Shown here piece after piece: positions 47,355 through 64,000 of a DNA stretch of 64,000 nt (the first letter of the stretch is position 1; the number at the start of each line of letters is the position of its first letter). The stretch spans positions 1-64,000 of the forward strand of contig JASEJE010000011.1 of NCBI GenBank assembly GCA_030024085.1, in the 5' to 3' direction. The notes under the pieces were generated by a model. The model had not been told where the DNA came from. It saw only the letters and a program-made list of their open reading frames with translations, and made no database searches. Source of the DNA: Bacillota bacterium. GTDB taxonomy: Bacteria; Bacillota; SHA-98; UBA4971. Made by a program: the position numbers and the translations under genes.

Positions 47355-49652
47355 TCAGAAGCTCATGTCGAAAGCTTCCGCGGTTGCGAGGATCTCCACC
47401 GGGTAGTCGTTCTCACCGAGCAGCCTCCCGTCGCTCGACCGCAGCACCAGCTTCAAGGTGTATCGGCCAGGCGCGAGGGCGCCGCTTACCATCCACGCCT
47501 CGCTCTTCGGCCAGGCGTTGAAGACCAGGGCGGCCTGGTTTTCCGGGACATCAACGACAAACGTCTCCGCGAGGCAGGCCTCGCCGTGCTGGTCCTCCAG
47601 CGTAACCTCGAGACGAGCCCCGGGGAACGTCTCCGGAAGGTCGTTCACCACCCGGAGTTCCTTGAAGATGAGCTGGCCTGTAACGAGTCGCTCCCGGTCC
47701 CTGACGGCACACGGCAGAACTGGCTGGAAGGCCCGGCCCAGGGCGAAGTACCCCTGTTTAGGCTGCCTATAGTAGTCCACGACCGACCACGTGATGGACG
47801 GCCAGCAATCCACGAACATGAACTGGAAGAGGCAGGCGATCTTGCGGAACTTCGCCAGGCGATAGCTCTCGGTCGCCGCCTTGAGGAGCGCGGCCTGGTA
47901 GGATTGGCTATTCCGGATGAACTCGTCGATGGACCCGCCCATCTGGATCCCGGCCACGTTGAAGGTCTGGTCGTACTGAAAGTCGTGGTAGGCCCACTTC
48001 CGCCAATCGGGGGGCCACAGGCCGCCGTCCCTGAACATGGCCTCCATGGCATCGCGCCCCGGCAGCGCCTGGGCGCCGTACTCGCTGATGACCGGCCCGC
48101 GCGGCGCCTGCACGTACTCGGCCACATGGCCGGTATACCATCCGTAGTAGGGGTGCTCCTCGAAGTCTGAGTGGGACTTCACCACGCGAGAGGCGTCGAG
48201 GGCGCTCACGACGTCGAAAAGGATCCTGTCGAGGGTGCCCTGGTTGATGCTGGGTTCGTTGTGGCAGCACCAGATGCATATGGACGGATGGTTGTATAGA
48301 TGCGTCACCATGTCCGCTATCTGCGAGGCGGCACTGTCCACGAGGTCCGGCGTCTCGTCGTAGCTCCACTGCAGCGCGAAGTCCTGCCACACGAGGATCC
48401 CCGCCTCGTCGCACGCCTCGTAGAACTCACGCCGGTTGACGTGCGCGTGGACGCGGACGCCGTTGATGTTCGCCCCCTTGAGGAGGGCGATGTCCCGCGC
48501 GATCATGTCGCGGTCGTATTCGGAGAGCCACTGCGTCGGGATGATGTTGGTTCCACGTATGAAGATGCGCCGCCCGTTCAGGCTGAAGTTGCCGTCTGCG
48601 TCAACCGCGAAGCGCCGCAATCCGAATCTGGCCTGCGACACGTCCCCACCTCGCTCCGTGGTGACGGCGACCTCGGCTCGGTAGAGGTCGGGCCGGCCGT
48701 GGTCCCAGGTCCACCAGAGATGAGGGTCGGCGATGGCCTCGACGAGAGTCAGCCTGCTCGTGCCGGGCTGGAGCCATACATGGCGCGACCCACAGTCGAG
48801 GCGTGCCCCCTCGAAATTGTCGGGGACGAGCGCGACTCCCACCTCGCCCTCCGTCGGGACCCCAGAGTAGTTTGCGACCTCCAGCGAGAGCCTGACTCGC
48901 GCCGTGCCGTCATCTAGCAGTGTCGGCGTGACGCGTACGCTCGTGATGCGGACATCGCCGGAGGCCACGATCTCGACGTCGTTCCAGATGCCCCCTGTGC
49001 CGAGGCTCTGGCCTGTCGCAGGGTCCCATGATCCGGGGCGCGTGTCGTGGTGCGAGAAGATGCCTTTGATGAGGCGCTTACTATCCGGCCACCTCACGCC
49101 CGGCTCCTCCATAGGCGCATCCACGCGGACCACGAGGACGTTTAGGCGGTCCCGGAGGATGGCGTGGTCCGCCGGAAACTCAAACGGCTGGAAGTACCCC
49201 TCGTGTTCGCCAAGGAGACACCCGTTGAGCCAGACTTTCGCCAGGTAATCGACCCCGGAGAAACGCACGAAGACGTAGCTGTCCCTGCATGCCTCCGGGA
49301 GCGTGAACGTGCGACGAAACCAGGCCTTGCCGCAGTAATCGTCCACGCCGCGAATCTGCCAGTTGCCCGGGATCTCCATGCCGGCCCAGCCGGAGTCGTC
49401 GGTCGCGGGGTCGTGTAGCCGCAGGATCTCGCCCCGGTCCTCCCTGTCAAGCATGTACCTCCATTCGCCGTTCAAAGAAATCACTGCGTGTGTACCGTGC
49501 GTACCAATCCCATCCACTACGTATAGCCCCCCTGTGTTGTATAGCCCCGGCCCATCCCCCGGACCCCCCACCGGCCGGTCCACTGGTCGCAAGTCACAGG
49601 CCTCCGCCCGCAGGCCGCATGCCTCAAGGCGTCGCTCGGACCGGGTCTTCAT
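47355..49652 (-). CDS. GH2 glycoside hydrolase, beta-mannosidase-like
   Basis: A 765-residue cytosolic enzyme: sugar-binding jelly roll ([20 protein letters not shown]), immunoglobulin-like domain, and TIM barrel with acid/base Glu466 in CCHNEPS and nucleophile Glu524 in VISEYGAQ. Overall layout suits beta-mannosidase or related GH2. The start is ATG 49652, two bases after the permease stop with GAAAGG before it; the open frame extending to 50354 only overlaps the permease gene. It is the last gene of its importer operon and probably hydrolyses the imported oligosaccharide. Confidence 0.9.
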
Positions 49653-49654
49653 GG

Positions 49655-50521
49655 TCAGCCTTTCGCTGAGAAGCCCATGGACATGCCCCGGCGGATCTTG
49701 TCCGAAAAGATGGCATAGAGGATGATAGTTGGAATCGCGGACAAGATGACAGCCGCGTTGAGCGGGCCGAATGACGTGATGAACGTCCCTTTGAACGTGA
49801 CGAGCGCGCGCGGCAAGGTGAAGAGTTCCGGCGCTCTCACGAACACGAGAGCGAAGAGGAACTCGTTCCAGATGTACACCGTCTGCAGGATGATCACGGT
49901 GTAAAGGGCCGGGAGCGCCATCGGAAGCATCACGATCCAGTACGTCTGCCACCTGGTCAGCCCATCCACCATCGTTGCGTCGTCGATGGATTTCGGGATC
50001 CCAATGAAGAATGAACGCATTATGAAGACGGAAAGCGGTAGTCCGTAAGCCACGTTCGGGAGGATGAGCGCGAAGTACGAGTTGACGAGGTCGAGATTGC
50101 GCAGCAGTTTGAGGAGGGGTATCAGGCCTGTTATCGGCGCGATGAACATGCCGCTCAGGAGGAGATAGAAGACGGTTTTCTGGCCGGCGAACCTGAGCCT
50201 CGCGAGGGCATAGCCTGCCATCGGCGAGACCAGGGCCAGGATGACCACGGAAAGGCCCGTCACGATCACGCTGTTCTTGAAGGCCATGCCGATCCGGCCG
50301 TCGGACCATGCTTCGCGGAAGTTCGCCCACAAGGGATGTGACGGGAGGCCCCACGGGTTCGTGAATATCTCCTGGTTGTCCTTGAGCGAGTTCACGGCCA
50401 CCCAGAAGAGGGGGTAGAGGATGACGAGCGCGTAGGCGGACAGCGCCACATAGAGCGCGACGCGGCCAGCCTGTTGCTTCCGGCGCTTCCTTCTCTCGAG
50501 CGAGTAGAGATCACCCGCCAT
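49655..50521 (-). CDS. Carbohydrate ABC transporter permease (MalG/UgpE-type)
   Basis: A 288-residue permease with six helices, YPLFWVAVNSLKDNQEIFTN at the N-terminal end and an EAA loop (SIDDATMVDGLTRWQTYWIV). ATG 50521 is two bases after the upstream permease stop; residues before it in the longer frame are unrelated. It partners 50524-51627. Confidence 0.93.
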   Translation of the reverse strand: MAGDLYSLERRKRRKQQAGRVALYVALSAYALVILYPLFWVAVNSLKDNQEIFTNPWGLPSHPLWANFREAWSDGRIGMAFKNSVIVTGLSVVILALVSPMAGYALARLRFAGQKTVFYLLLSGMFIAPITGLIPLLKLLRNLDLVNSYFALILPNVAYGLPLSVFIMRSFFIGIPKSIDDATMVDGLTRWQTYWIVMLPMALPALYTVIILQTVYIWNEFLFALVFVRAPELFTLPRALVTFKGTFITSFGPLNAAVILSAIPTIILYAIFSDKIRRGMSMGFSAKG

Positions 50522-50523
50522 GG

Positions 50524-51627
50524 CTATGCCTCCTCCCCGCCGCCGGCCGGCCGGACCCGCATCATCCTCAACTGGACGACCGTGATGACGAGACAGATGA
50601 GGAAGATCGACACGCCGATGGCCGAGGCGTAACCGGATTGCATGTAACGAAAAGCCTTCCTGTAGAGGTAAGTCGTGGCGATCTCCGTGGCGTTGACCGG
50701 TCCGCCCCCGGTCATGGACCAGATGAGGTCGAACGACTTGAACGAACCTGAGATGCTCATGACCACCAGGACGGCGATGACCTCCTTGAGAAGCGGCGCC
50801 GTGACCTTTAGCGTGGTCCAAAACTCCGACAGGCCGTCCACCTTGGCGGAATCGAAGACGCTCTGCGGTATGCTCTTCAGGCCCGAAAGGAAGATGACCA
50901 CGTACAGCCCGATGTATATCCAGTTGATCGTGATGAGCACGGCTATGAGGGCAGTCGCGGGGTCGCCGAGCCATGCGGGCTGGAAGGAATGCAGCCCCAG
51001 CCGGTCGATGAGGAGGTTGATGGTCCCCATGGTCGGATCGTACATCCATGTCCAGACCATGCCCACGGCAACCAGGGATATGACCATCGGCAGGAAGAAC
51101 ACGGTCGCGAAGAAGTTGCCTCCGCGCATCTTGCGGTTCAAGGCCACGGCCACGGCGAGGGCGACAGGTATCTGGATGAGGACCGATTGCGCGGCAACGA
51201 TCATTGTGTTGAGGATCGCCTTCGCGAAGACCGGGTCCTCCGAGAAGAGCTGGCGGTAGTTCTGCAGCCCTATGAAGGCTTTCTGGGGCGAGATGCCCGC
51301 CCAGTTGAAGAGGCTGAGGTACACGACCTCGAGGTTGGGGTACACGAAGAAGACCCCGAAGATGACGAGCGCTGGCAACAGGAGGGCGTAGGCAACCCTG
51401 TTGTCGTTCATCCTCCTCTCCACGGCGTCTCCGCGGGGCCCACCGGCCCAGCCGGTCCTATCGGTATCGATCCTACCGGTCCTGGCCGTTGTGCCGCCCT
51501 CGCGGGGCTTGGCGGCCTCGCCGGACTTGCTGGCGCTGGCGCCCCCGGCGGGCCGTGTGGGTGCGGCGGACTCGCTGGACCGCATGGCTCCGGCAGACCC
51601 ATTGGGCGTGGTGATTCCTGCAAACAT
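50524..51627 (-). CDS. Carbohydrate ABC transporter permease (MalF/UgpA-type)
   Basis: The family domain begins at about residue 73 (MNDNRVAYALLLPALVIFGV) and has six helices and an EAA loop (SVFDSAKVDGLSEFWTTLKV). The first 72 residues are a low-complexity Ala/Gly/Thr/Arg stretch unusual for the family. The start may be ATG 51411 (AGGAGG close before it) or 51627 (GGGGGATGCACG). Confidence 0.9.
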   Translation of the reverse strand: MFAGITTPNGSAGAMRSSESAAPTRPAGGASASKSGEAAKPREGGTTARTGRIDTDRTGWAGGPRGDAVERRMNDNRVAYALLLPALVIFGVFFVYPNLEVVYLSLFNWAGISPQKAFIGLQNYRQLFSEDPVFAKAILNTMIVAAQSVLIQIPVALAVAVALNRKMRGGNFFATVFFLPMVISLVAVGMVWTWMYDPTMGTINLLIDRLGLHSFQPAWLGDPATALIAVLITINWIYIGLYVVIFLSGLKSIPQSVFDSAKVDGLSEFWTTLKVTAPLLKEVIAVLVVMSISGSFKSFDLIWSMTGGGPVNATEIATTYLYRKAFRYMQSGYASAIGVSIFLICLVITVVQLRMMRVRPAGGGEEA

Positions 51628-51703
51628 CGTGCATCCCCCAGACAGGCCGCACCTGCGCGGCCTTCCGCACTATCCCGCCTCAAACTGGCAAAACCCCGAA
51701 GAA

Positions 51704-51766
51704 CGCCGGCGCCCCTGGATCACGGACCCGACCCGCCGCGGCTTGCGTCCTGCGCGGGCGCCGGCG
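51704..51766. repeat. Inverted repeat between binding-protein and permease genes
   Basis: CGCCGGCGCCC (51704-51714) and GGGCGCCGGCG (51756-51766), 11-bp perfect arms with a 41-base loop. As at 39012-39043, it lies just downstream of a binding-protein gene and may stabilise its mRNA. Confidence 0.55.
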
Positions 51767-51771
51767 ACTCC

Positions 51772-51811
51772 CGCTACGTCGCTACGTCGCTACATCGCTA
51801 CATCGCTACAT
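51772..51811. repeat. 8-bp x 5 tandem repeat over a stop codon
   Basis: Five perfect-length units, CGCTACGT twice and CGCTACAT three times. On the minus strand the binding-protein gene ends within it (GCTTCCGATGTAG), so the repeats supply the stop and the 3' end. Confidence 0.9.
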
Positions 51812-53110
51812 CGGAAGCACGCCCTGGGCCTTGAGCTCGTTCGCGGTCGCCTCCTGTCTCTTGGCCATCTCTTCGGGCGTTATCTTGCCTGCAAAGAGCG
51901 CCGCCAGCCCCTCAAGATGGGCGGCTGCGAATTGCGGAGGCGAGTACTGATCCCACGCCATCTGAAGGTGGCTCGCCTTGCCGACCTGGCCGATGACCTT
52001 CTGGATGACCGGATCGTACGCCCCTTCCGGGAGCGGAACGTTGAACACGATGAGGTCGCCCACGTTCTTCACGAAATCGTAGATGACCTCGTCGCGTGCG
52101 AGGTATTCAACCAGCTTCATCGCGGCGGCTTTCTCCTCGGGTTTCACCTTCTCAGAGACGCAGTGCACCGTCTGGGGCGCACCCAGCACCATCGTGGGAT
52201 CTCCCTTGCCCCCGGGCACCGTGGGGAACCTTATTATGTCGAGGTTGAAGTTGGGAACCTGCTTGCGCAGATCAGCTATTACCCAGGTACCCATGAGGTA
52301 CATCGCGGCCTTGCCTGAGAAGAAGTAGCGCTGCGCATCGCTGTATCCCATGCCGAGGAAGCCCTTCTCGAACGCGCCCGCGGATACCAACTCCTGGCAC
52401 CTCTTGCCTGCCTCCACGAAGGCCTGGCTCTCGAAGCTAAACCCGGGAGCACGGTTGAGGGTCTTCGCGAATAGCTCTGATCCGCCGATGCGGTCCACGA
52501 GATACATGTAGTAGAACGAAAGCTCCCAGTTCTCCTTGCCGCCAACGGCGATCGGGATGATATCGTGGTCCTTGAACTTCTTGATGGCGTCCAGGAATTC
52601 ATCCCATGTCCACGTCTCGTTCTTCGCCGCGTCCGGCACCTTCACCCCGGCCTTCTCGAACAGGTCGCGGTTTATGTAGATGTGCCCTGCCCAGGTTGTG
52701 TAAGGGAGACCGTAGTTCTTTCCGCCCCACGTGCTCGTGGAGAGCGCGCCGGCGGGGACCTTTCCGCCCAGCTTCTTGATGATGGGGGTCAGGTCCGCAA
52801 CCTGGCCCTCATCGACGTAGGACTTCAGGACGCCGCCGCCCCATGAGCGCCAGAAAGCGGGCGGCATTCCCGCGGCCATCGACGACTTGAGGCCTATCTT
52901 GAGATCCTCATCCTGCATGTCGATGCGCACGACCTGGATGTCGGGGTTCTCCTTCATGAAGCCCTCGATGACGCGGTCCATCCACGCGCAGATGGTCTTC
53001 TCGCCGCCGTCCGCCGTCCACCACTCGATCTTGGTCTTCGCAAGCGCCGTGCCGGATACGAGGGCAAAGACCAGGATCACCGTGACCAGGAAACCCATTC
53101 TCCGCTTCAT
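51806..53110 (-). CDS. Carbohydrate ABC transporter solute-binding protein
   Basis: A 434-residue SBP_bac_1 protein with signal peptide MKRRMGFLVTVILVFALVSG then TALA-KTK and no lipobox Cys. Fold motifs include IEWWTADGGEKTICAWMDRV and AGMPPAFWRSWGGGVLKSYV. ATG 53110 has AGGAGG at seven bases. It precedes the MalF/MalG-type permeases and GH2 enzyme on the same strand. Confidence 0.93.
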   Translation of the reverse strand: MKRRMGFLVTVILVFALVSGTALAKTKIEWWTADGGEKTICAWMDRVIEGFMKENPDIQVVRIDMQDEDLKIGLKSSMAAGMPPAFWRSWGGGVLKSYVDEGQVADLTPIIKKLGGKVPAGALSTSTWGGKNYGLPYTTWAGHIYINRDLFEKAGVKVPDAAKNETWTWDEFLDAIKKFKDHDIIPIAVGGKENWELSFYYMYLVDRIGGSELFAKTLNRAPGFSFESQAFVEAGKRCQELVSAGAFEKGFLGMGYSDAQRYFFSGKAAMYLMGTWVIADLRKQVPNFNLDIIRFPTVPGGKGDPTMVLGAPQTVHCVSEKVKPEEKAAAMKLVEYLARDEVIYDFVKNVGDLIVFNVPLPEGAYDPVIQKVIGQVGKASHLQMAWDQYSPPQFAAAHLEGLAALFAGKITPEEMAKRQEATANELKAQGVLPM

Positions 53111-53647
53111 GGCCATCCTCCTCATCTTTGACATAGTCCGGATGATCTCCCGCGAAACGTGCCTCCATCAACCATCGTGACTTCATGACTTGCCGGTGCT
53201 CCACCCGGTTGCCCAACCAACGCCTCCCAGAACGACCTCCGGAACGCCTGCAAGACCGCGTACCAAAGGGCCTGCCAGAACGGCTCTGCCTGCCGGGGCA
53301 CCCGTCCGGACGTCCGCCAGACGGCGCTGCCGTCGGCTGCCAGCCTCCCGGCTGCCGGTCTGCAGATCACCGGTGGACGCACAGTGGCAAGCGGCCCCGC
53401 CCCGGGTTTCCTCCAGCCGCCCCTGGATCTGGCGCCTTCCCGCCCCCCTTCGTCCTCACTTCTCCTGCGCGCCGTGCTGCACAGTGCCACGTCCTGTCGC
53501 GCCCGCGCGCCTTGCAGCACCTGTGCACCATGTCCCTGTCGCGCCCCGCGGCGCCCGGTCAGATCCTGCAATCCTCCCGCGCGCCACCCCTGCGACTACC
53601 CGAGAGCTCGACCGCGGGCCCTTTCCTCGCAGCCGCGCAGCCCGGTT
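53111..53647. other. Gene-free stretch
   Basis: 537 C/T-rich bases (plus strand) between the MsmK-type ATPase and the binding-protein gene. Open frames exist on both strands but none has a family resemblance, and they are rich in Arg/Ala/Gly as expected for random GC-rich sequence. The promoter of the binding-protein operon is probably here but is not clear. Confidence 0.5.
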
Positions 53648-54868
53648 TCAACGCGAACGCGGCCCGCACGTCAGCAGCGACATGCCGCTTGCTGGATCGA
53701 ACAGATGAATATGAGCGCGATCCAGCCGGAACTCCACCTGCTCGCCTGCCCGAGCCTCGCGGTCCTCATCCCAGCGCGCGACCAGCACCGTGGTTCCAGG
53801 GCGGTCGGCACCCACGCCGGCACCGGCGCCATCACCGGCGGTGTCGCGCACGCCCCCGTCGCTTGCGCCACCTGGGCCGTCCATCCCTGCCCCGGTCTTG
53901 CCGGTTTCGACATGCACATAGTTGACTTCGCCCAGGCGTTCGAAAAACGTCACTTCGCCGGCCCCGTCAGCGTCCTCGAGCTCGCGCCCGACCTTCACAT
54001 TCCTCGGCCTGACGCCCAGCACCACCCTAGCTGGCAGGTCGCCCCGCCCGGCGACGCGCGTCATGACGTCTGCGGGAAGCTTCAGGCGCAGGCCTTCACC
54101 GAGGAGCCACGCATCCCCATCGGCTGATTCCACGCGGCAGTCGGCGAGGTTCATCTCAGGGCTACCGATGAACCTCGCCACAAACACGTTTCTGGGATTC
54201 TCGTAGACGTCCTCGGGAGAGCCGATCTGCAGGACGCGGCCGTCCGCAAGGATCACGATCCTGTCGGCAAGCACCATCGCCTCTTCCTGGTCGTGAGTAA
54301 CGTAGATGGTGGTCGTCCCAAGCCTGGTATGAAGCTTCTTGATCTCGGACCGCATGGTCAGGCGCAGCTTGGCGTCAAGGTTGGAGAGGGGTTCGTCCAT
54401 GAGGAAGAGGCGGGGGTTTCGCACTATGGCGCGCCCGAGGGCTACGCGCTGCTGCTGGCCGCCGCTCATGGCGCGGGGCCTGCGGCTGAGGAGGTGCTCG
54501 ATGTTGAGCAGCCTCGCCACCTCATGGACGCGGCGGTCTATCTCGTCCTTTGGGACTCTGTCCACTCTCAGGTTCAGGGCGATGTTGTCGTAGACCCGCA
54601 TGTGCGGATAGAGCGCATAGTCCTGGAAGACCATGGCGACGTTGCGCTCCTTCGGGGAAAGCGCGTTCACGACCTTGCCATCGAGGATGATCTCGCCCCG
54701 AGTGGGCGATTCCAGTCCCGCTATGAGGCGGAGCGTGGTCGTCTTGCCACATCCCGACGGCCCCAGCAGCACTATGAACTCGCCTTTGCGTATCTCGAGG
54801 TCGTCGATCTCAACGGCTACGTTATCGTTAAACTTCTTCATGACTCGACTCAGCACGAGATCTCCCAC
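53648..54868 (-). CDS. ugpC: Carbohydrate ABC transporter ATPase (UgpC/MsmK-type)
   Basis: A 406-residue ATPase: Walker A GPSGCGKTTTLR, Q-loop MVFQDYALYPHM, signature AMSGGQQQRVALG, Walker B LFLMDEPLSNLDAKLR, then OB-type regulatory domains. GTG 54868 has GGGGGT seven bases upstream. In Bacillota one such ATPase often energises many sugar importers; it is the only one here, while three binding-protein/permease sets are present. A Gly/Ala/Asp-rich insert (GKTGAGMDGPGGASDGG and on) lies in the C-terminal domain. Confidence 0.95.
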   Translation of the reverse strand: MGDLVLSRVMKKFNDNVAVEIDDLEIRKGEFIVLLGPSGCGKTTTLRLIAGLESPTRGEIILDGKVVNALSPKERNVAMVFQDYALYPHMRVYDNIALNLRVDRVPKDEIDRRVHEVARLLNIEHLLSRRPRAMSGGQQQRVALGRAIVRNPRLFLMDEPLSNLDAKLRLTMRSEIKKLHTRLGTTTIYVTHDQEEAMVLADRIVILADGRVLQIGSPEDVYENPRNVFVARFIGSPEMNLADCRVESADGDAWLLGEGLRLKLPADVMTRVAGRGDLPARVVLGVRPRNVKVGRELEDADGAGEVTFFERLGEVNYVHVETGKTGAGMDGPGGASDGGVRDTAGDGAGAGVGADRPGTTVLVARWDEDREARAGEQVEFRLDRAHIHLFDPASGMSLLTCGPRSR

Positions 54869-55078
54869 GAGAATACCCCCCACGCGCCGTCGCCGGACGC
54901 TGCACCACACTGTACACTGTAGATGACCTACCTAAAAGTTGAAACTCAAGAGGTCGTTCGATTTTCCGTTGCCGCATCTGCAACACCCGAATCCTCGGCG
55001 CCCGATCGTTGCCCGATCGTTCATCCGCCGGCAACCCTGCAGCTTCTATCGGATTGCCACGGCCTCGCGAAGCCACGT

Positions 55079-56074
55079 CTAGACGCTTCCACGCAGGACA
55101 AGCCTGGGTTTCAGGACAATCCGCCTCTCAGGCGGGTGATTCTCTATACAATCGATGAGAAGCTCAGCCGCCACCTGGCCAGCCTGCTGCTTCGGAAGGT
55201 GCATCGTTGTGAGGCCGGGCTCCACCAGGTCGGTCATGGCGATGTCGTCGACCCCAACGAGCGCGATGTCATGAGGCACGCGCAGCCCCTCCTCCTTGAT
55301 GGCCTTGAGGGCCGCGAGGGCTGCGATGTCGTTGTATGCCATGATGGCCGTAAACCTGCGTGGGCTTGCCACAAGGAGTTTCATCTTGCGGTAGGCCATG
55401 TCGCCATCTACCTGGAAGTTCACGATGTTCTCGGGGCGAGGCTCGAGGCCATGGGCCCGTAGGGCGGCGCAGAAGCCCTCGAAGCGGTCATCGTATGTCG
55501 AGTCGCCCGGGTAGCCCCCGAAGAACAGGATCTTGCTGTGTCCCTTGCTGATGAGCAGCTCGCCGAGGGTCCGGCCCACCTCGTGGTCGTCGTACCCCAC
55601 CCAGTTGGCCTGGATGTCCTTACAGTAGTGGCTCGCCAGGACGAACGGAAAATCTTTTTCTTTCAGCAGCCTGACGTGTGACTCCCCGCAGTTCGGGATG
55701 GGGTCTATGATGATCCCCCTGGCCCGGTACGAGAACATGAGCCTGATGGCCTGCTCTTCTTTGGCGTGGTCGCCTTGAGTATTGTAGATGAGGATCTGGT
55801 AACCCCGGAGCTTGCACCCTGCCTCGATACCCTTCAGCACCTCGGCGTAGAATGGGTTGGAGTTATCGATAATGATAACGCCCACCGTGCGATTCTGGCG
55901 TGTACGCAGGTGAGATGCGAGGACGTTCCGCTCGTAGCCGATCTGCCCTGCTATCTTCCTTATCTTGGCCGTGGTCTCCTGGCTCACGCCAGACTCACCT
56001 CGCAGGGCCCGGGAGACAGTGTTCGCAGACACTCCGGCGATGGACGCGATCTCCTTGATGGTCGGGTAGCGCAT
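55079..56074 (-). CDS. LacI-family transcriptional regulator
   Basis: A 331-residue regulator with helix-turn-helix and hinge at residues 1-60 (TIKEIASIAGVSANTVSRAL, ASHLRTRQNRTVGVIIIDNS) and a sugar-sensor domain. ATG 56074 follows GAGGTTGAGCT. It lies between the ATPase gene and the GH66 locus, both on the same strand, and could control either or both. Confidence 0.93.
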   Translation of the reverse strand: MRYPTIKEIASIAGVSANTVSRALRGESGVSQETTAKIRKIAGQIGYERNVLASHLRTRQNRTVGVIIIDNSNPFYAEVLKGIEAGCKLRGYQILIYNTQGDHAKEEQAIRLMFSYRARGIIIDPIPNCGESHVRLLKEKDFPFVLASHYCKDIQANWVGYDDHEVGRTLGELLISKGHSKILFFGGYPGDSTYDDRFEGFCAALRAHGLEPRPENIVNFQVDGDMAYRKMKLLVASPRRFTAIMAYNDIAALAALKAIKEEGLRVPHDIALVGVDDIAMTDLVEPGLTTMHLPKQQAGQVAAELLIDCIENHPPERRIVLKPRLVLRGSV

Positions 56075-56086
56075 AGCTCAACCTCG

Positions 56087-56100
56087 CGTTAACGTTAATG
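56087..56100. promoter_or_regulatory. LacI-type operator upstream of the 55079 regulator
   Basis: TTAACGTTAA, a perfect palindrome with central CG, flanked by a C/G pair, 13 bases upstream of the LacI start codon. This is the form expected for an autoregulatory LacI-family site. Confidence 0.6.
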
Positions 56101-56281
56101 TCATGGTCCGCAAAAAAACCCACGGCGGTATCATGTTTTAGTTTGTAGGTTCGCCGTTCCGCCGCAAAGTCCTTCTTGTTGTGGGGGAAATTGCGAGCAC
56201 GGAAAAGCTATGGGGGCAGGGTTCCAATTGTGGTTATGATCGCATGGCTCCTTCATCAAACGGTCCGCCGCCGACGGCTGG

Positions 56282-58060
56282 TCACTCCCGTCCCTCGAAC
56301 ATCGCCACTGTGCTCCAGTACTCCAGGTATGGGACGGTAAACTCATAGGTGTTCCTAGCTCCATCCCCGACTCTGGTCAGCTGCGTCCTCTCCATCCTGC
56401 CGCCGTGGTATTCAGGCGAAGCAAACAGGACCTCCCCAACAGGCCGGTCAAGGCGGGCGCGGAACCGCACGTCCCGCAGCACTGGCGGCGGGGGCTGCTC
56501 AATGCGCCACGTCGGGTCTGTGACTCGCAGAAGGTTGACGAAGTTCACCAGGATAAGGCCATCCTTGCGCCTCGGGATGACCCAGATCTCCTCGGCGGCG
56601 GAGTCGCCCGACGTGGATGGATAGTCCAGCGCAGCCAGCTCCAGGTCGGCACCCGGGCTGAAGTCTGGTCCGGCGGCGTCCCGGAACAGGAGATCGGCGT
56701 ACCTCGTGCAGAAGTCGTAGTAGTGTCGAAGGCTTGTCGCAAGATGCTCAGGGATCCGCTCGTACCGGGGAAAGTACGGGTCAGCGAGCATGTTCGCGCC
56801 TTCGCCCAACTCCATATGCGAACCTCCCGCTGAGAATATGACTGCATCAAGGTACCTTACCGAGGCCTCAAGCGCAGGTGAGAGATAGGCCGCCAACACC
56901 ACTGCCTTTCCGCCACTCAGCCTTCGCCCCTCGAAGATGAGATCGACTATGTCTGCATACGTGTCGTGGGGCGGCCAGATCTCAATGTACACGATATCCG
57001 CGTCTGATGGGGCGATAGTCTCGATGGGCCAGTTGTTGACGCAGTTGAACGCGACGAAGGCCCCTGGGCGAACCGCCGTCACGGCACGCTTGGCGTCGTT
57101 TGCGAAGTCCGCAAACGCCCTATCAACGCGGAGAACGCTCCCGCTCTCACATTCAGGAGTCGTGAAGGCGCGCTTTGGATAACCATACTGGTCGATGTGG
57201 ATCCCGTCAAACCCCATATGAGACACGACCTTCTGATACTCATCCATCATCCTTGTGTGCCAGGGCGAAGTTCGTGAAGGGTTCATCAGGTAGAGGTATC
57301 CGCCGCCCAGCGTGTAGGGGACATTGACTCCTTCCCAGAGAGCCCACTCGCGATGCGCCTCAAAGAACTGCCTCGACGCAGCGTATACCGTGGCGTACGC
57401 CATCGCCGCCATTCCGCGCTCCTGCACGGCGCGGAGTTTGTCGGCCACCGTCCGGATCGATAGATGGCGCCCCATGCTGTCCACGAACTCCTCGTGCTCC
57501 GGCAAGAGAGTGTCATGGCGGTACATCCAGTCATAGAACTGAACGGCGTTGATGTGGTAACGGTTCATGAGGTCCGCTCGCTCGTGGGCATCAGAGACAT
57601 CGCCATCGCCGGGCTGAAAGTCGCACATGAATCCGTACTTGGGGACCTCCGTCCATGAATCCGCCACATTGAAGGCCGTCGATGCGTGCAGCAACTCGCC
57701 GCCTGCGTCAAGCTCGACCTCGACGCCATACCCGGCTGTCTCCTCCGGCGGAAACCACGAGAATAGACGCACGAGAGTCGAGTCCGCCTGCACCTTGATG
57801 ACATCGCGAATGACGTGAACCTCATCAGCCAACCTCCTGAAAGAGACTGTCAGCCGCCCGCTCACCGCGTCCGCGCGCGAGTTTGAGACCGCCACCTCGA
57901 TTGAAACGGGCTCACCCGGTTTGAAATAGCACCTGGTGGGGCACGCGTCGATTGACAGGCCGGCGTGCCTCGCCCGCGCATGTTCGTCGCCGAACAAGGG
58001 CGTCGACGCCATGAATGTGAAAAGCATCAATGTTATCACCGCCCTGGTACGAGCCACCAT
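56282..58060 (-). CDS. GH66 dextranase-like glycoside hydrolase
   Basis: A 592-residue protein with an N-terminal signal peptide (ITLMLFTFMASTPLFGDEHA), an immunoglobulin-like domain, and the GH66 barrel: YHINAVQFYDWMYRHDTLLP, nucleophile candidate Asp290 in FDGIHIDQYGYPKR, acid candidate Glu360 in DIVYIEIWPP, and a C-terminal beta domain. GH66 enzymes cut alpha-1,6-glucan (dextran) internally or form cyclic isomaltooligosaccharides. The signal peptide makes it extracellular or periplasmic. It follows two permease genes by 11 bases. Confidence 0.9.
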   Translation of the reverse strand: MVARTRAVITLMLFTFMASTPLFGDEHARARHAGLSIDACPTRCYFKPGEPVSIEVAVSNSRADAVSGRLTVSFRRLADEVHVIRDVIKVQADSTLVRLFSWFPPEETAGYGVEVELDAGGELLHASTAFNVADSWTEVPKYGFMCDFQPGDGDVSDAHERADLMNRYHINAVQFYDWMYRHDTLLPEHEEFVDSMGRHLSIRTVADKLRAVQERGMAAMAYATVYAASRQFFEAHREWALWEGVNVPYTLGGGYLYLMNPSRTSPWHTRMMDEYQKVVSHMGFDGIHIDQYGYPKRAFTTPECESGSVLRVDRAFADFANDAKRAVTAVRPGAFVAFNCVNNWPIETIAPSDADIVYIEIWPPHDTYADIVDLIFEGRRLSGGKAVVLAAYLSPALEASVRYLDAVIFSAGGSHMELGEGANMLADPYFPRYERIPEHLATSLRHYYDFCTRYADLLFRDAAGPDFSPGADLELAALDYPSTSGDSAAEEIWVIPRRKDGLILVNFVNLLRVTDPTWRIEQPPPPVLRDVRFRARLDRPVGEVLFASPEYHGGRMERTQLTRVGDGARNTYEFTVPYLEYWSTVAMFEGRE

Positions 58061-58071
58061 CGTAAGCCCGC

Positions 58072-58953
58072 CTATCCTTTCATACCTGTCAAAGTGACCC
58101 CCTCGATGAAGTACCGCTGGGCCAGGAAGAACACGACGAGAATGGGCAGCGAAAAGACGATGGAGGCAGCCATAAGGAGGCTGTACTCGGTGCTATGAAG
58201 GCTCTGGAAGAGGCGAAGACCTAACGCGAGGGTGTACTTCTCCTGGTCGCTCAGGTATATCAAGGGCGAGAAGAAGTCGGTCCAGTTCGCAACGAAGATG
58301 AACACGCCGACAGCGGTGAGGGCCGGCTTGCTCAGAGGCGCTACGATCCGCACTAGGATTCCGAGGTTGCTGCACCCATCTATCTTCGCCGCATCGCAAA
58401 GCTCGTTCGGTATGGTCATGTAGAACTGGCGTAGCAGGAATATGTTGAACGCGCCGCCCCCAAGAAACGCCGGGATTATGAGCGCCTTGAGGTTGTTGTA
58501 CCATCCGAGCCTCTGAAACAGCACGAAAACGGGGATCATCGTCACCTGCCCAGGGAGCATCATCGAAGCAAGGAGGACTCCGAACAGCGCAGTTCGCCCG
58601 GGCGCCCTGAGCTTGGCAAACCCGTATGCCACGACGGCGCTTGCTGATAGTGCCCCTATGAGGCACATGGAAGTCACCAGGACGGTGTTACCAAGGTAAC
58701 GCCAGAACGGGATGAACTCAAGTGCTCTGGTATAGTTGCTCCAGACCACCGGCTTCGGAATCCACGTGAACTTCGACGCCACAACCTGGTCGTACCCTTT
58801 GAGCGACGTGGACACCATCCAGAGGAACGGCGTCAGAAGAGCGCTCGAGCCTACGAGCAGGACGAGGTAGACAAGGGTTTTGACGAGGATTGCCCTCATC
58901 CTTCGCGTCCTCCGGGACGCGGACTGCCGGGGGATGCCGACACGTCCAACCAT
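58072..58953 (-). CDS. Carbohydrate ABC transporter permease (MalG/UgpE-type)
   Basis: A 293-residue permease with six helices, SSALLTPFLWMVSTSLKGYD, the EAA loop ELCDAAKIDGCSNLGILVRI and C-terminal QRYFIEGVTLTGMKG. It lies nine bases after its MalF-type partner and 11 bases before the GH66 gene. It probably imports isomaltooligosaccharides. Confidence 0.93.
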   Translation of the reverse strand: MVGRVGIPRQSASRRTRRMRAILVKTLVYLVLLVGSSALLTPFLWMVSTSLKGYDQVVASKFTWIPKPVVWSNYTRALEFIPFWRYLGNTVLVTSMCLIGALSASAVVAYGFAKLRAPGRTALFGVLLASMMLPGQVTMIPVFVLFQRLGWYNNLKALIIPAFLGGGAFNIFLLRQFYMTIPNELCDAAKIDGCSNLGILVRIVAPLSKPALTAVGVFIFVANWTDFFSPLIYLSDQEKYTLALGLRLFQSLHSTEYSLLMAASIVFSLPILVVFFLAQRYFIEGVTLTGMKG

Positions 58954-58962
58954 AGTGGCGCC

Positions 58963-59913
58963 CTACCTCCTGAGGTCCCCCTCATAGTAAACCCACCGAC
59001 GGGACAACCTGAGTTGGAGACCTGTGAAAGTCACAAGAATCACGAAGAGAATCCATGCCAGAGCCGAGGCGTACCCCATCTGGAAGAACTCGAAAGCCAC
59101 CCTGTAGAGATAAAGCACGTAGAACAGGGTCGAATTCAACGGGCCACCCTGAGTCATTACGTATGACTGGGTGAAGACCTGGAACGACCCGATGATCCCC
59201 ATCACGAACGAGAAGAACACCGTCGGGGATAGCATCGGAAGGGTCACGTGCAGGAACTGCTGCCAAGTGGTCGCCCCGTCGACAACCGCCGCTTCGTACA
59301 GATGCCTGGGGACACCTTGCAGGCCGGCAAGGAAGATGACCGTACCTCCCCCGACTCCCCACAGTCCCATCAAGATCAGGGCCGGCTTCGACCAGACCGG
59401 GTCGGCCAGCCATAATGGTCCCTTGATGCCAACCAAAGACAGAGCCCGGTTCACAAGTCCGTACTGGGGGTTGAAGAGCCATATCCACAGGATCGACGAG
59501 GCGACCGCCGGCATTATGGAAGGCATGTAGAATATGGTCCGGAACACCCGCACTCCGCGAACCGCCTGGTTCAGAAGAAGAGCAAGCGCGAGGCTGCCCG
59601 CGACCCCGAGTGGCACCGAGAAGAAGGTGTAGTAGGCCGTGTTATAGAGGGCGGTCCAGAAGAGGGGATCGTCGGTGAAGATGGACACGTAGTTCGCAAG
59701 GCCTACCCAGGTGGGGGGCTGAAGTATATTGTACTCGCAGAGGCTGTAATAGAAGGACACCAGCATCGGACCAAGTGTGAGCCCGGAGAAACCCACAAGC
59801 CAGGGGAGGATACATAGATAGAAGTCCCGCGCCTCCCTCACGGCGTTGCGGCTCAGGCCCCGACGCCCGGAGTCAGCCTTCCCCGGACTCGTGCAGTCGA
59901 TTTCCCGCGTCAT
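58963..59913 (-). CDS. Carbohydrate ABC transporter permease (MalF/UgpA-type)
   Basis: A 316-residue permease with six helices, FYLCILPWLVGFSGLTLGPM and the EAA loop HLYEAAVVDGATTWQQFLHV. ATG 59913 has GGAGGGAGAGGGACA upstream, so the ten residues before it are left out. It partners 58072-58953. Confidence 0.93.
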   Translation of the reverse strand: MTREIDCTSPGKADSGRRGLSRNAVREARDFYLCILPWLVGFSGLTLGPMLVSFYYSLCEYNILQPPTWVGLANYVSIFTDDPLFWTALYNTAYYTFFSVPLGVAGSLALALLLNQAVRGVRVFRTIFYMPSIMPAVASSILWIWLFNPQYGLVNRALSLVGIKGPLWLADPVWSKPALILMGLWGVGGGTVIFLAGLQGVPRHLYEAAVVDGATTWQQFLHVTLPMLSPTVFFSFVMGIIGSFQVFTQSYVMTQGGPLNSTLFYVLYLYRVAFEFFQMGYASALAWILFVILVTFTGLQLRLSRRWVYYEGDLRR

Positions 59914-60032
59914 TGTCCCTCTCCCTCCACCCTGGAGTGCCATATCACCCTTTGTCTCCGTGCAGTACCGCCCTCTACCGCACGATGCCGATTGTTGCCG
60001 GTGATCTGTGTGTTCTCACGCATTGCCGATCG

Positions 60033-61325
60033 TTACCGGCGAAGGTGCCTGTTGTACCTGTCAAGCACCTTTTGGGCCCTGCCTGCAGCCCACTCTAGAG
60101 CGGCCTCCGGTGACATCTCCCCGTGGACGGCTTTGTCGACCGCCTGGTAGATATACGATTCGACCTCCGGAAACGCGGGGTGCACCGGCCTGTAGCGCGC
60201 GTGCTCCATGGCGTCGATGAACGGCTTGAGAAGAGGGTCGCCGGCGACTTGCGGGTCAAGGGCGGCAGCCTTGAGAGCAGGGATGGTGCCCGCCTTGCGG
60301 GCGAAAAGAATCTGCGCATCTTTGCTTACGGCGAACTTGATGAATTCCCATGCGGCGTCGCTATGGGCGGCTCCCTTTGGGATCACCAGCGAGAACCCCC
60401 CGGCTATGGTTGCCCGGACCTTTCCCCTGGGGAGCGGGGCGACTCCCAGATCATTGGCAACGAGGTTCGGCGCATACCTCCGCATGTCGCTCAGCATCCA
60501 GCACCCCTCGGATTTCATGGCCACCTTGCCCGTGTAGAACGGATCGGACAGGTGGCTACCGAAACCCGCCGCCAGGCTCACTAGGTTGTCGTACCCGTAG
60601 TAATTGACCAGGGATACAACCCACTCAAGAGCCTCTACGCCCTCGGGCCCGTTGAACGTAACCCTGGTGGCATCGGCGTTGAATGCATCGCCTCCGCACT
60701 GCCACAGGTAGTGGACAAGGGAGACCCCGTTCCATATGGGCACAAACCCGACCTGCACGAGCCGGCCTTTTTCGTCCCGTTTCGTAAGCGCGTGGGAGTA
60801 GCGTACAAGATCGTCCCACGTCTCCGGCGGCTTCGAGGGATCCAGTCCTGCCTCTTTGAATAACCGCTTGTTATACATGAGCACACGCGAGTTGGTTTCG
60901 AAAGGAATGCTATAGACTTTGCCCCGGTACACCGTCTCGTTCCAGCAAGCCTCGAAGAACGCACCAGGGTCCATCTTGTCCCTGGCAATGTAGGTGTCAA
61001 GGGGAGTGAGCGCATCACGAGACGCGTATTGGCCGGTCATGTACCTGTCGAAGAGAACCACATCAGGCGGGACTCTCCCGGCTACGGACGCGAGCAGCTT
61101 AGTTCCGAGATCGGGTGTCACAGTCGCCTTGACAACGATGTTCGACTGGGACTTGTTGAAGGCATCGACCACTGCGACGACACCATCTCCCCCTTCTCCG
61201 GTCCAATCATGCCAAAGTGCGATCTCGACGGGGGCGCGGCTCGCTACGGCCGCCTGAGCCGTCGTGATCGTCGCGAGAAGGCTCAAGCACAAGGCGAGAG
61301 CCAAAAGGCGAAGCACCTGTCTCAC
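60033..61325 (-). CDS. Carbohydrate ABC transporter solute-binding protein
   Basis: A 430-residue SBP_bac_1 protein with signal peptide MRQVLRLLALALCLSLLATI then TTAQA-AVAS, without a lipobox. Fold motifs: PVEIALWHDWTGEGGDGVVA, LLASVAGRVPPDVVLFDRY, DPSKPPETWDDLVRYSHAL. GTG 61325 follows GGGAGGGGAATTGTC. It heads the permease genes of the GH66 locus and probably binds alpha-1,6-gluco-oligosaccharides. Confidence 0.92.
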   Translation of the reverse strand: MRQVLRLLALALCLSLLATITTAQAAVASRAPVEIALWHDWTGEGGDGVVAVVDAFNKSQSNIVVKATVTPDLGTKLLASVAGRVPPDVVLFDRYMTGQYASRDALTPLDTYIARDKMDPGAFFEACWNETVYRGKVYSIPFETNSRVLMYNKRLFKEAGLDPSKPPETWDDLVRYSHALTKRDEKGRLVQVGFVPIWNGVSLVHYLWQCGGDAFNADATRVTFNGPEGVEALEWVVSLVNYYGYDNLVSLAAGFGSHLSDPFYTGKVAMKSEGCWMLSDMRRYAPNLVANDLGVAPLPRGKVRATIAGGFSLVIPKGAAHSDAAWEFIKFAVSKDAQILFARKAGTIPALKAAALDPQVAGDPLLKPFIDAMEHARYRPVHPAFPEVESYIYQAVDKAVHGEMSPEAALEWAAGRAQKVLDRYNRHLRR

Positions 61326-61349
61326 GACAATTCCCCTCCCATCGGGAAC

Positions 61350-61988
61350 CTATCCCTCAACCGATTGCAGAGTGATGGCGAATATCCTCACAGCCGGCTC
61401 CTCGGGTAGCGTCAAAGAGGCGATCTCCCTTGCCGGGTCGACCTTGAACGAGAGGACATACAGTCTCCCTCCCGGCGCTTCATCCCCTTCTGAGGAGTGC
61501 TTGTGGTCGGTCTCCACACCAACGTACCTGCCGAACCCGGGAGCGCCCTTCATGTCAGGGATACGCTGCGACAAGACCGAACTCGACCCGTCGGAGTAGG
61601 TGACGGTGAACGTGGCCCTTCTGGTCCCGGACACCGACGTGGCAAGCATGTGAAGCGCCACGCAATGGGTCCTCGGGAACTTCACGACCTGGTTGTAGCA
61701 AACGATGTTGTTGTCTCGTCCGTCATCCGTCGGCGGAAAGACGAAGTATACGTCGCAGAGACTCGCCGCTTCGCCTGCCTGCGGAAGTTGCTCCGCTGGA
61801 AACGATGTCCGGCTGAAGTCCAGATCGCCATCAAGGGGATCGTGATCCCACGAGATGCCATCGTTGTTGAAGTAGTTGCCGAGGTTCACAAGCACGTAGG
61901 TCGTGCCCGTCTGGGCAGCCTGCGCTGTGGCACATGGGGCCGCAAGCAGCAACAGAGCACAGACAGCATGTAGGAGAACCGTTCTCAC
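61350..61988 (-). CDS. Secreted putative carbohydrate-binding protein
   Basis: A 212-residue protein with a signal peptide (VLLHAVCALLLLAAPCATAQ then AAQ). The mature part is one beta-rich domain with LGNYFNNDGISWDHDPLDGD, SFPAEQLPQAG, YCNQVVKFPR-like and VTYSDGSSSV stretches, a pattern I associate with small jelly-roll domains beside glycosidases. GTG 61988 has GGAGGTGATCCTGA upstream. It lies 24 bases before the binding-protein gene. Function inferred from context only. Confidence 0.65.
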   Translation of the reverse strand: MRTVLLHAVCALLLLAAPCATAQAAQTGTTYVLVNLGNYFNNDGISWDHDPLDGDLDFSRTSFPAEQLPQAGEAASLCDVYFVFPPTDDGRDNNIVCYNQVVKFPRTHCVALHMLATSVSGTRRATFTVTYSDGSSSVLSQRIPDMKGAPGFGRYVGVETDHKHSSEGDEAPGGRLYVLSFKVDPAREIASLTLPEEPAVRIFAITLQSVEG

Positions 61989-62150
61989 TCAGGATCACCT
62001 CCGTTCTGCTGTGTGCGCAGGCGCCGTACCCCGCCAGCGGTGAGGGCAGCGGCGCCAGCGGGAGAAGGCGAGGTAGGCGCTCCACGCCGTTCCTCTTCCG
62101 GTCGGGCTTGCCGCGGCCGCCCACCCCGCTCGCCTCCTCGAGCAACAGGA

Positions 62151-62942
62151 TCACCGGTAAACATGAGAGACGATCGCGAACGTGTCCTTCTCCTTGCTGT
62201 AAGACCCCAGTATCGCCTTCTGGTCCGCCCCGGGCTCGGTCAGCATGTCCAGGACGTTCGGGTGGTACCCGCTCTCGTCGCTGCCCCCGAACTGCCACTC
62301 CGTCCTCTCGCGGAGGACCCGCCGAACCTTGATCCCATCCATTACGTCCTTGCTGCCTTCCTGCCCCATGAGCAGCACCTGGTATCCCCAGCCCGGAGAC
62401 GGTGTCCCCAGCCACGAGACGGGAACCCAGATTCTGATGGTACGCCCAGTGACGCTCGCCTTTTTCGCCACGTGGATGCAGGATCGCATGTCGTCGTCCA
62501 CAAGCCCCGCCATGATGTCCTCGACCTCGGTGCCCCATCCGCCCTCACAGATTATGGCTTTGTCCCAGCGGGAGTCGTCCGCGAACGCCACATTTGCTCC
62601 GGGTATACATTCGGCAAATCCCGATGACCTCTCGCTGTCTACATAGATTTGGAACATCTGGACGCTGATACCGTTCGGACCGCCCCACGGGTTGGCGATG
62701 GACTCAGCGAGCGTGATCTCGAACCGCGCCTCGTCGGCTTCCTTGTACACCTCGAACTTCGCAATGTCGAAGGCCCCCGGAGAGAAAACGGAGTTCGTCG
62801 GGTAGACGTATGTCCCTGGCCCATAATCATCACCCGCCGGATCGGCAAGCGATACAACCGGCGTCTCGGCGCCCTGCGCGCCGGATATGGCCAGGAATAC
62901 AATCAGCGCGATGAAAACCACGCTACTCAACCTCTGCCGCAT
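62151..62942 (-). CDS. Secreted glucodextranase C-domain-like protein
   Basis: A 263-residue protein with signal peptide MRQRLSSVVFIALIVFLAIS then GAQGA. The mature part begins SLADPAGDDYGPGTYVYPTN, SVFSPGAFDIAKFEVYKE and continues as a DOMON-like beta sandwich, the pattern of the C-terminal domain of Arthrobacter glucodextranase (Glucodextran_C). Here it is a stand-alone gene, next to a GH15 enzyme gene. It probably binds alpha-glucan at the cell surface or in the periplasm. GGAGG precedes ATG 62942. Confidence 0.78.
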   Translation of the reverse strand: MRQRLSSVVFIALIVFLAISGAQGAETPVVSLADPAGDDYGPGTYVYPTNSVFSPGAFDIAKFEVYKEADEARFEITLAESIANPWGGPNGISVQMFQIYVDSERSSGFAECIPGANVAFADDSRWDKAIICEGGWGTEVEDIMAGLVDDDMRSCIHVAKKASVTGRTIRIWVPVSWLGTPSPGWGYQVLLMGQEGSKDVMDGIKVRRVLRERTEWQFGGSDESGYHPNVLDMLTEPGADQKAILGSYSKEKDTFAIVSHVYR

Positions 62943-63094
62943 GGCCTCCTATCCCTCCCTCAAGTAACAGTATGTCTTCGGTCCGCGTTGCCCGTCCTCC
63001 TGCATTGCCCTTCCTTTCGCTCACCCCCCTGATGCAGGCCTGAAGCGCCGTACCTCACATCGGCCTCGCGTTGTCTGTCCGGTCACCCTTTGCT

Positions 63095-64000
63095 TTATAC
63101 AGAGGCGTGTGTCGCTTCTACGTGTGCTTTTGCCAATTCATCCAATAGCACGAGGTACATGGCGTGCGACCAGAGGAGAGGAGTCGCCACTGGACCCCAG
63201 CGGTCGTGCCACACCGGCAGGAAGGCCGGGTCGTTCACGTGGTCGCTCACCTGCTCTGGGAGCTCGCCGCGTTCGTTGGCGCAGCGTTCGACCCAGTCCA
63301 GGATCGGCGCGGCGGAGGCCGGACGCCCGGCACGGCAGTAATACCACCCCAGCCAGCACGCAAGGAGCGGCCACTCGCCGCCGCCGTAGTATGTATCCTC
63401 CGGGTAGCGGTGGACACCGGAGTGATAGAGGCGTCGCTCAAGCTCCTCCACAGTGGACAACATCAAGGGGTCGGATGGCTCCACGACCGCGAACGGCACG
63501 GCCAGCCAGAGGAGGCTTGCATCTATGCTGGGGTTTCCGAGGGACTTCACGAACCGTCCCTGGGCGACTCCGTGGTCGAGTATGTATTCACGGATGCTCT
63601 CGGCGAGGCCGGCAATACCGCTGGCGTTGGGATCGTTGGAGGCGCCCGGGGCGCCGAGGGCGCGAGCGGCGTGCGCAGCATGCCCAGCGTATGAGGAGGG
63701 TGCCGCGTGTACGGCGCGGTCAACGTGTGCAGCCCAAGCGACGTCGACAGCGCAAGTGGCACAAGTGGCCTGGGTAGCGTGGATGGCCTCGGCGGCTTCC
63801 ACGGCTTCAGCGACATCGGCACACCGGCTGGACTCGACAGCACATAGGGCCGGCCCGGTATGGGCCGTGCAGGCGGTCCGGGGGGTCTTTGGGACCTCAG
63901 AAACCCCGACGACCTGTGCGGCCGCGCCACCGCATGCAAGCAGGCGGCCTGCGGCAGCGAGGCCTCCGTATAGGCAGGCCAGAGTGGCAGGATGGAGCCT
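63095..64000 (-). CDS. GH15 glucoamylase/glucodextranase-like enzyme (5' part beyond the window)
   Basis: The frame is open to the right edge (first codons read RLHPATLACLYGGLAAAGRL), so only the last 301 residues are seen. GH15 features: EYILDHGVAQGRFVKSLGNP, SIDASLLWLAVPFAV, YYGGGEWPLLACWLGWYYCR and RGELPEQVSDHVNDP with the catalytic-base Glu, ending GPVATPLLWSHAMYLVLLDE. Between the first helix and REYIL there are about 110 residues of Ala/Thr/His/Val-rich low-complexity sequence not usual in the family. It probably releases glucose from alpha-glucan ends. Confidence 0.85.
   Translation of the reverse strand, partial: RLHPATLACLYGGLAAAGRLLACGGAAAQVVGVSEVPKTPRTACTAHTGPALCAVESSRCADVAEAVEAAEAIHATQATCATCAVDVAWAAHVDRAVHAAPSSYAGHAAHAARALGAPGASNDPNASGIAGLAESIREYILDHGVAQGRFVKSLGNPSIDASLLWLAVPFAVVEPSDPLMLSTVEELERRLYHSGVHRYPEDTYYGGGEWPLLACWLGWYYCRAGRPASAAPILDWVERCANERGELPEQVSDHVNDPAFLPVWHDRWGPVATPLLWSHAMYLVLLDELAKAHVEATHASV

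Follow-up and report, generated by a model that had tools for sequence, protein, structure and literature searches.

Enzymes and uptake systems for alpha-1,6-glucans described from several bacteria are the closest counterparts of a gene block in the draft genome (3.1 Mb) of a Bacillota bacterium (GenBank assembly GCA_030024085.1), labelled G000 here. The block lies at the end of the window, that is, the whole stretch of 64,000 nucleotides analysed (bases 1-64000 of the 95,020-base contig JASEJE010000011.1), and encodes a glycoside hydrolase (GH) of family 66, a solute-binding protein (SBP) and two permeases of an ATP-binding cassette (ABC) importer, a GH15 enzyme, and two small exported proteins, GluC and p212. 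The glucodextranase of Arthrobacter globiformis, AgGD (EC 3.2.1.70, PDB 1ulv/1ug9), acts on the same linkage as proposed here, and its domain C is of the same family as GluC, but AgGD is one exported multidomain chain, whereas the window has a GH15 of another subfamily, lacking the N domain and a visible leader, and a separate GluC. The isomaltose glucohydrolase of Kribbella flavida, KfIG (GH15, EC 3.2.1.205, PDB 5z3a-f and 7c24-27), is a short one-domain enzyme to which the GH15 type of the window aligns over the full catalytic domain with key residues kept; the window protein differs by a low-complexity insert of ~105 amino acids (aa), and its isomaltose activity is a prediction. The GH66 has as relatives the dextranase 5axg (TpDex of Thermoanaerobacter pseudethanolicus) and the cycloisomaltooligosaccharide glucanotransferases (CITases) 3wnk and 5x7g, with which it shares the family and an aligned catalytic Asp and Glu, while lacking the inserted domain of CITases, a CBM35 (carbohydrate-binding module, CBM). 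p212 matches AziU2 of Streptomyces sahachiroi (7wuw, 8gs1), from which it differs in being exported and in standing in a sugar locus. As for whole pathways, SBP genes beside CITase genes, as well as an isomaltose glucohydrolase, are described for Tepidibacillus in the available part of one report (PMC13084667). The T. decaturensis importer (TdCIBP) resembles the present one in that SBP-dependent import is linked to a CITase-type gene and an isomaltose glucohydrolase is found in the genome, while neither GluC nor p212 is mentioned in that part of the report. A pathway leading from a GH66 through an importer to an isomaltose glucohydrolase is of a known kind. The Bacteroidota dextran locus FjDexUL, as far as its description is available (PMC10316084), likewise combines a GH66 with separate small glycan-binding proteins (FjDusD and FjDusE), but relies on SusC/D-type uptake and GH31, GH97 and GH65 enzymes where the window locus has an ABC importer and a GH15.

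The block is read here as a set of that known kind for the utilisation of alpha-1,6-glucans, namely dextran and isomalto-oligosaccharides, in a diderm Bacillota bacterium, with GluC and p212 as accessories, and we put the probability of this reading at roughly 0.7. An earlier sequence-only reading had already proposed a dextran/alpha-1,6-glucan locus with a GH66, an importer and a GH15, and the family matches bear this out: every gene it named, p212 excepted, was found with strong family matches, and the coordinates hold. All seven genes lie on the minus strand from contig position 64507 down to 56282, in the order GH15, GluC, p212, SBP, two permeases and GH66. The features are as follows:

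63095..64000, continuing to contig 64507 (L004:3095-4507), minus strand: GH15, isomaltose-glucohydrolase-like, 470 aa in all (PF00723)
62151..62942, minus strand: GluC, stand-alone exported Glucodextran_C protein, 263 aa (PF09985, 204.6 bits), without a C-terminal membrane anchor
61350..61988, minus strand: p212, small exported beta-sandwich protein and AziU2 relative, 212 aa (profile and fold matches)
60033..61325, minus strand: SBP, 430 aa, with a Sec leader lacking a lipobox as judged by eye (PF13416, 151.1 bits; PF01547)
58963..59943, minus strand: ABC sugar permease 1 (PF00528, 61.5 bits)
58072..58953, minus strand: ABC sugar permease 2 (PF00528, 62.1 bits)
56282..58060, minus strand: GH66 endo-dextranase-type enzyme, 592 aa, exported, with a hydrophobic N-terminal leader as judged by eye (PF13199, 416.4 bits)
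55079..56074, minus strand: LacI-family regulator 3' of GH66 (PF00356 and PF13377)
contig 64756-65880, outside the window, opposite strand to the block: divergent LacI-family gene

The spread of the block was followed in samples of 398 genomes for the phylum, 17 for the class and six for the genus, the last including G000, G002 and G005. The same order is found in G002 and G005, and thus in three of the six genus genomes, in each case beside thrB/thrC-like genes (named by eye); with gene order and sequence kept in this way, the block is not a chance assembly. A GH66 match above 60 bits was required for a genome to be counted, leaving 11 of the 398 (18 exceeded the cut-off, of which seven with weak partial matches were dropped). 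In ten of these 11 loci, three within the genus and all seven of the others fetched, the GH66 is accompanied by a GH15 of the short type, an SBP and one or more permeases. The eleventh is that of G271, taken as Limnochordales Bu89, which gave no GH15 match and in which GluC, p212, SBP and GH66 follow each other in the same order. Intact GluC and p212 genes are adjacent in four loci (G000, G002, G005 and G271), while the remaining seven have the short GH15 type with no intact GluC or p212 adjacent.

The GH15 gene has its stop codon inside the window, at 63095, and it is the 5' part of the gene that runs on beyond the window edge, which excludes the possibility that a C domain of its own is encoded further out. 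Taken as a whole gene, it matches PF00723 with 76.9 bits from residue 14 of 470, and a scan of the whole gene returned no other Pfam domain: neither the N-terminal beta-sandwich domain of glucodextranases nor the C domain PF09985 is present in the chain, the latter sitting in the next gene. No hydrophobic leader or signal peptide is visible when the sequence is read by eye. Among PDB chains, the Kribbella isomaltose glucohydrolase 5z3d stands first with 265 bits, followed by a glucoamylase (23.9) and a dextran dextrinase (22.5), and no glucodextranase chain was among the matches at E 0.001. The G005 orthologue, which is free of the insert, aligns with residues 6-366 of 374 to residues 40-398 of 405 of 5z3a-f, and just five residues precede the aligned part in the protein as given. 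The acid catalyst of KfIG is Glu178. Seven further residues, Tyr48, Asp56, Pro334, Glu335, Gln336, Trp350 and Ala358, are named for KfIG in the available part of another report (PMC12446779). All eight are present in the window GH15, with the KfIG numbering transferred through the G005 alignment. A tree of 16 GH15s, not including KfIG, sets the window gene and 12 other short GH15s apart, with 100/100 support, from three long ones that lie near stand-alone GluC genes. From its full-length relation and the kept residues, the enzyme is predicted to be of the isomaltose-glucohydrolase kind.

These results bear on the proposal of the sequence-only reading that GH15 and GluC are a split glucodextranase, the catalytic and C domains being encoded apart and acting jointly outside the membrane. 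GluC is indeed the gene that follows GH15, and it is similar to domain C of the Arthrobacter glucodextranase 1ug9; a stand-alone GluC also directly precedes a 649-aa GH15 gene in two other genomes (L105, L110), and a scrap of GluC directly precedes the GH15 of a further locus (L151). Against joint action stand not only the lack of a visible leader, the missing N domain and the lack of a glucodextranase among the PDB matches at E 0.001, but also the loci themselves, as the GH15 type occurs without an intact GluC in seven of 11 GH66 loci, GluC occurs in Bu89 without a GH15 match, GluC is common on its own, and it is also fused to a GH57 in G000. Because of the GH15 subfamily, the lack of a visible leader and of the domains, and the locus comparison, the split enzyme is rejected as very improbable; with this correction, the GH15 gains a function that can be tested. 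The L151 scrap (G182, 7587-7649) comprises 21 residues with the GluC signature, in frame directly before the GH15 of a GH66 locus, and may be what a deletion left of a GluC gene once present there.

Several minor observations concern the GH15 and its insert. G000 encodes a second isomaltose-glucohydrolase-like GH15 (contig C15, L121:9210-10427), which shares 52% identity with the G005 gene and lies near permease and SBP genes. The insert of the window GH15 is missing from the G005 orthologue, and low-complexity inserts also occur in homoserine-kinase-like, MurJ-like and glycosyltransferase-like genes (named by eye; L004 6042-7232, 11401-13509 and 18686-19789), some of the inserts overlying tandem arrays of 9 or 15 bp. 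Such inserts in conserved proteins may be a lineage-wide habit.

For the GH66, the best NCBIfam match is the endo-dextranase NF052487, at 225.6 bits and thus below its cut-off, while PDB comparisons give higher scores to the CITases 5x7g and 3wnk (250 and 244 bits) than to the dextranase 5axg (209). It is therefore conceivable that the enzyme is a CITase-like transglycosylase and that the importer is specific for cyclic isomalto-oligosaccharides, as in T. decaturensis, for which the available part of the report likewise gives an SBP, a GH66 and an isomaltose glucohydrolase (PMC13084667). The alignments themselves speak against this: the protein matches 5axg in one stretch (36-585) and the CITases in two, between which ~120 chain residues, about 408-526 of 3wnk, are omitted, and the alignment to 3wnk leaves no inserted module of CBM35 size. 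With the best family model being an endo-dextranase, albeit below cut-off, a CITase appears improbable. The putative nucleophile D290 aligns with a residue that is Asp in 3wnk but Ala in 3wnl, the latter being read here as a nucleophile mutant, and the putative acid/base E360 aligns with a Glu.

GluC is the stand-alone secreted Glucodextran_C protein that the sequence-only reading had seen at 62151. Its PF09985 match lies far above the cut-off of 22 bits and covers residues 29-258 of 263 and profile positions 1-226 of 228; phmmer aligns it with residues 777-926 of glucodextranase 1ug9 (E 3e-22). The family is carried by 16 of the 17 class genomes and by 97 of the 398 phylum genomes, and frames below 450 aa account for 99 of its 117 matches in the latter, frames of at least 899 aa for the other 18. 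The one long frame scanned against Pfam, from G000 itself, is a GH57 fusion. Stand-alone GluC is the common, ordinary form in the phylum; under the family and enzyme names, a search of published titles found none on such forms. From the 97 genomes, 14 GluC neighbourhoods and 15 stand-alone proteins (L105-L118) were picked for family variety, not randomly. In 13 of these proteins the C-terminus has a hydrophobic segment (hydropathy at least 1.65), and in two it does not; hydropathy also reveals no such segment in GluC of the window or of Bu89. With the segment missing here and usual elsewhere, the GluC of this block appears to be a soluble form of what is mostly an anchored protein. A structure model of GluC from a two-row alignment was poor (mean pLDDT, the predicted local distance difference test, 46.3). 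Beside the GH57-GluC fusion of G000 lies a gene for a 743-aa exported protein (contig C22, L005:9769-12000) with two AMPK1_CBM/CBM48 modules; its C-terminus is rich in strands, with Phe as the last residue, and the protein is possibly an outer-membrane barrel bearing starch-binding modules.

The second small secreted protein predicted beside GluC was found as p212. Of the three secreted proteins for which a domain search had been suggested, GH66 and GluC matched Pfam, while for p212 neither Pfam nor NCBIfam gave a match at E 0.001. A four-sequence p212 profile matches the AziU2 chains 8gs1_A and 7wuw_A with 52 bits (E 6e-13) over 182 residues, and the p212 model matches the AziU2 entries with a Foldseek E of 6e-9 and a Z of 15.1 over 165 residues at 3.1 A. 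The model is of modest confidence (mean pLDDT 61.9), and the match rests also on the sequence profile; the next best fold reaches Z 6.9. By profile and model, p212 is a beta-sandwich relative of AziU2. Membership in a CBM family is not claimed, since CBM-like folds score at Z below 7, in the range of a common arrangement. AziU2, which acts with AziU3 in aziridine formation, is a subunit in azinomycin biosynthesis, in keeping with its PDB entry titles. A lone p212-like protein on an Endomicrobium contig (L066:9971-10696) stands among aminotransferase-like, radical-SAM-like, ligase-like and decarboxylase-like genes (named by eye), and by analogy with AziU2 this neighbourhood recalls a biosynthetic cluster. 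Related stretches were also found in 16 records, 15 of Streptomyces plasmids and one of Frondihabitans, where the overlying features, if annotated, are SGNH hydrolase, lectin, GH20 or GH92.

Within the phylum sample, the p212 gene is tied to the SBP gene more firmly than to GH15 or GH66. It lies upstream of the SBP gene at distances, calculated from coordinates, of 24, 27, 26 and 21 bp in G000, G002, G005 and Bu89, respectively. The SBP, whose best PDB match is 4r9f (189 bits), belongs to a subfamily (at least 44% identity) with five loci in the 398 genomes, scored on the best four candidates per genome at an E limit of 1e-60, and a p212-like gene is immediately upstream in all five. One of these, in Bu89, is a two-domain copy immediately flanked by a GH38 gene on one side and an SBP gene of 44% identity on the other. 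The p212-like matches number 13, from nine of the 398 genomes; six of the nine are outside the genus, and five of these six show no SBP of the subfamily. It could be speculated that GluC and p212, p212 above all, instead of binding free sugar are assembly or specificity partners of the SBP in a receptor complex that passes its ligand to the permeases. The unbroken pairing, with gaps of 21-27 bp, would fit such a role, as would the complex of AziU2 with AziU3 indicated by PDB entry titles. Yet the pairing comes from two lineages only, with the best four candidates per genome scored, and p212-like domains are fused to GH38 mannosidases (three of six phylum proteins scanned), which fits a general glycan role equally well; partnership with the SBP is a possibility, though on balance a somewhat unlikely one. 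A bolder version, which we consider quite unlikely, has GluC, p212 and the SBP subfamily joined in a complex that captures glycan in the periplasm and serves an ABC importer. Diderm Bacillota would then possess, made from a recruited enzyme C domain and a recruited beta-sandwich of AziU2 type, an equivalent of the glycan-binding proteins on the surface of Bacteroidota. If this were true, p212 would be the first AziU2-family protein acting in sugar uptake. Already by its gene context, sugar uptake is connected with an orphan beta-sandwich family for which the one clear relative of solved structure seen here belongs to the biosynthesis of an antibiotic.

As to compartments, G000 encodes BamA (Omp85, 182 bits), and next to it in the same stretch are frames that resemble Skp and LpxD, the latter two named by eye. 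An outer membrane has been reported in Limnochordia in the available part of one study (PMC11456536), and the Bu89 match suggests kinship of G000 to this group. The cell is probably diderm, and the exported parts of the locus are therefore probably periplasmic; leaders without a lipobox, as judged by eye, fit soluble periplasmic proteins. GluC and GH15 would accordingly be predicted to sit in different compartments. For regulation, a palindrome at contig 64581-64596, GGTTGACCGGTCAACC, has promoter-like sites close by and is probably the operator of the divergent LacI protein. Among 161 loci, four distinct sites carry the motif GTTKACCGGTMAAC, each of them in a GH66 locus, and a fifth site has it with one mismatch. 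Relatives of the divergent LacI with 69-72% identity are found in three further loci; before that of G092 there is no good operator match, the best having four mismatches.

Taken as an alpha-1,6-glucan utilisation set, the locus would work as follows. The exported GH66 would cut dextran into isomalto-oligosaccharides outside the inner membrane, the SBP and the two permeases would carry the fragments into the cytoplasm, and the cytoplasmic GH15 would release glucose from them. No ATPase gene of the importer was found within the cluster, and the ATPase is assumed to be supplied from elsewhere, for example by one of the genes that by eye are of MsmK type, at 53648-54910 or on contig C16. The divergent LacI protein would control the gene set through the palindromic operator, and GluC and p212, as soluble periplasmic proteins, would keep fragments of the alpha-1,6-glucan more concentrated around the GH66 and the SBP. 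The GH66, import and GH15 steps draw on strong homology, while the holding of glycan is a suggestion for an uncommon accessory pair; glycan binding is its most likely role, and this is the weakest step of the explanation.

Several points weigh against the reading as a whole. It is a prediction from sequence, model and locus comparison. The higher CITase than dextranase score leaves room for a transglycosylase product of the GH66, and AziU2 is not known to bind sugar. GH66 and p212 are each missing from three of the six genus genomes, and since seven of 11 GH66 loci have no intact GluC or p212 adjacent, the pathway does not depend on the pair. In Bu89 no GH15 was matched and no permeases adjoin the locus, so that the pathway is incomplete there as seen; the empty GH15 search shows little, as nothing in that genome gave a positive. 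Finally, the putative specificity residue Trp350 is aligned to a Trp also in the long GH15s near other GluC genes. As a marker of alpha-1,6 specificity it was rejected, as it does not discriminate short from long GH15s.

Beyond the block, the LacI gene at 55079..56074 is a doubtful member of the dextran locus: an orthologue was found at the block end in neither G002 nor G005 (just matches of 23-29% identity), and the gene may serve the neighbouring GH2 locus. An Rfam scan of 54000-64000 gave no matches. The adjoining GH2 locus (47355-54910) has its own SBP, two permeases and an MsmK-type ATPase, the last named by eye, and an array of 5.2 copies of an 8-bp unit (CGCTACAT) is found at 51772-51813.

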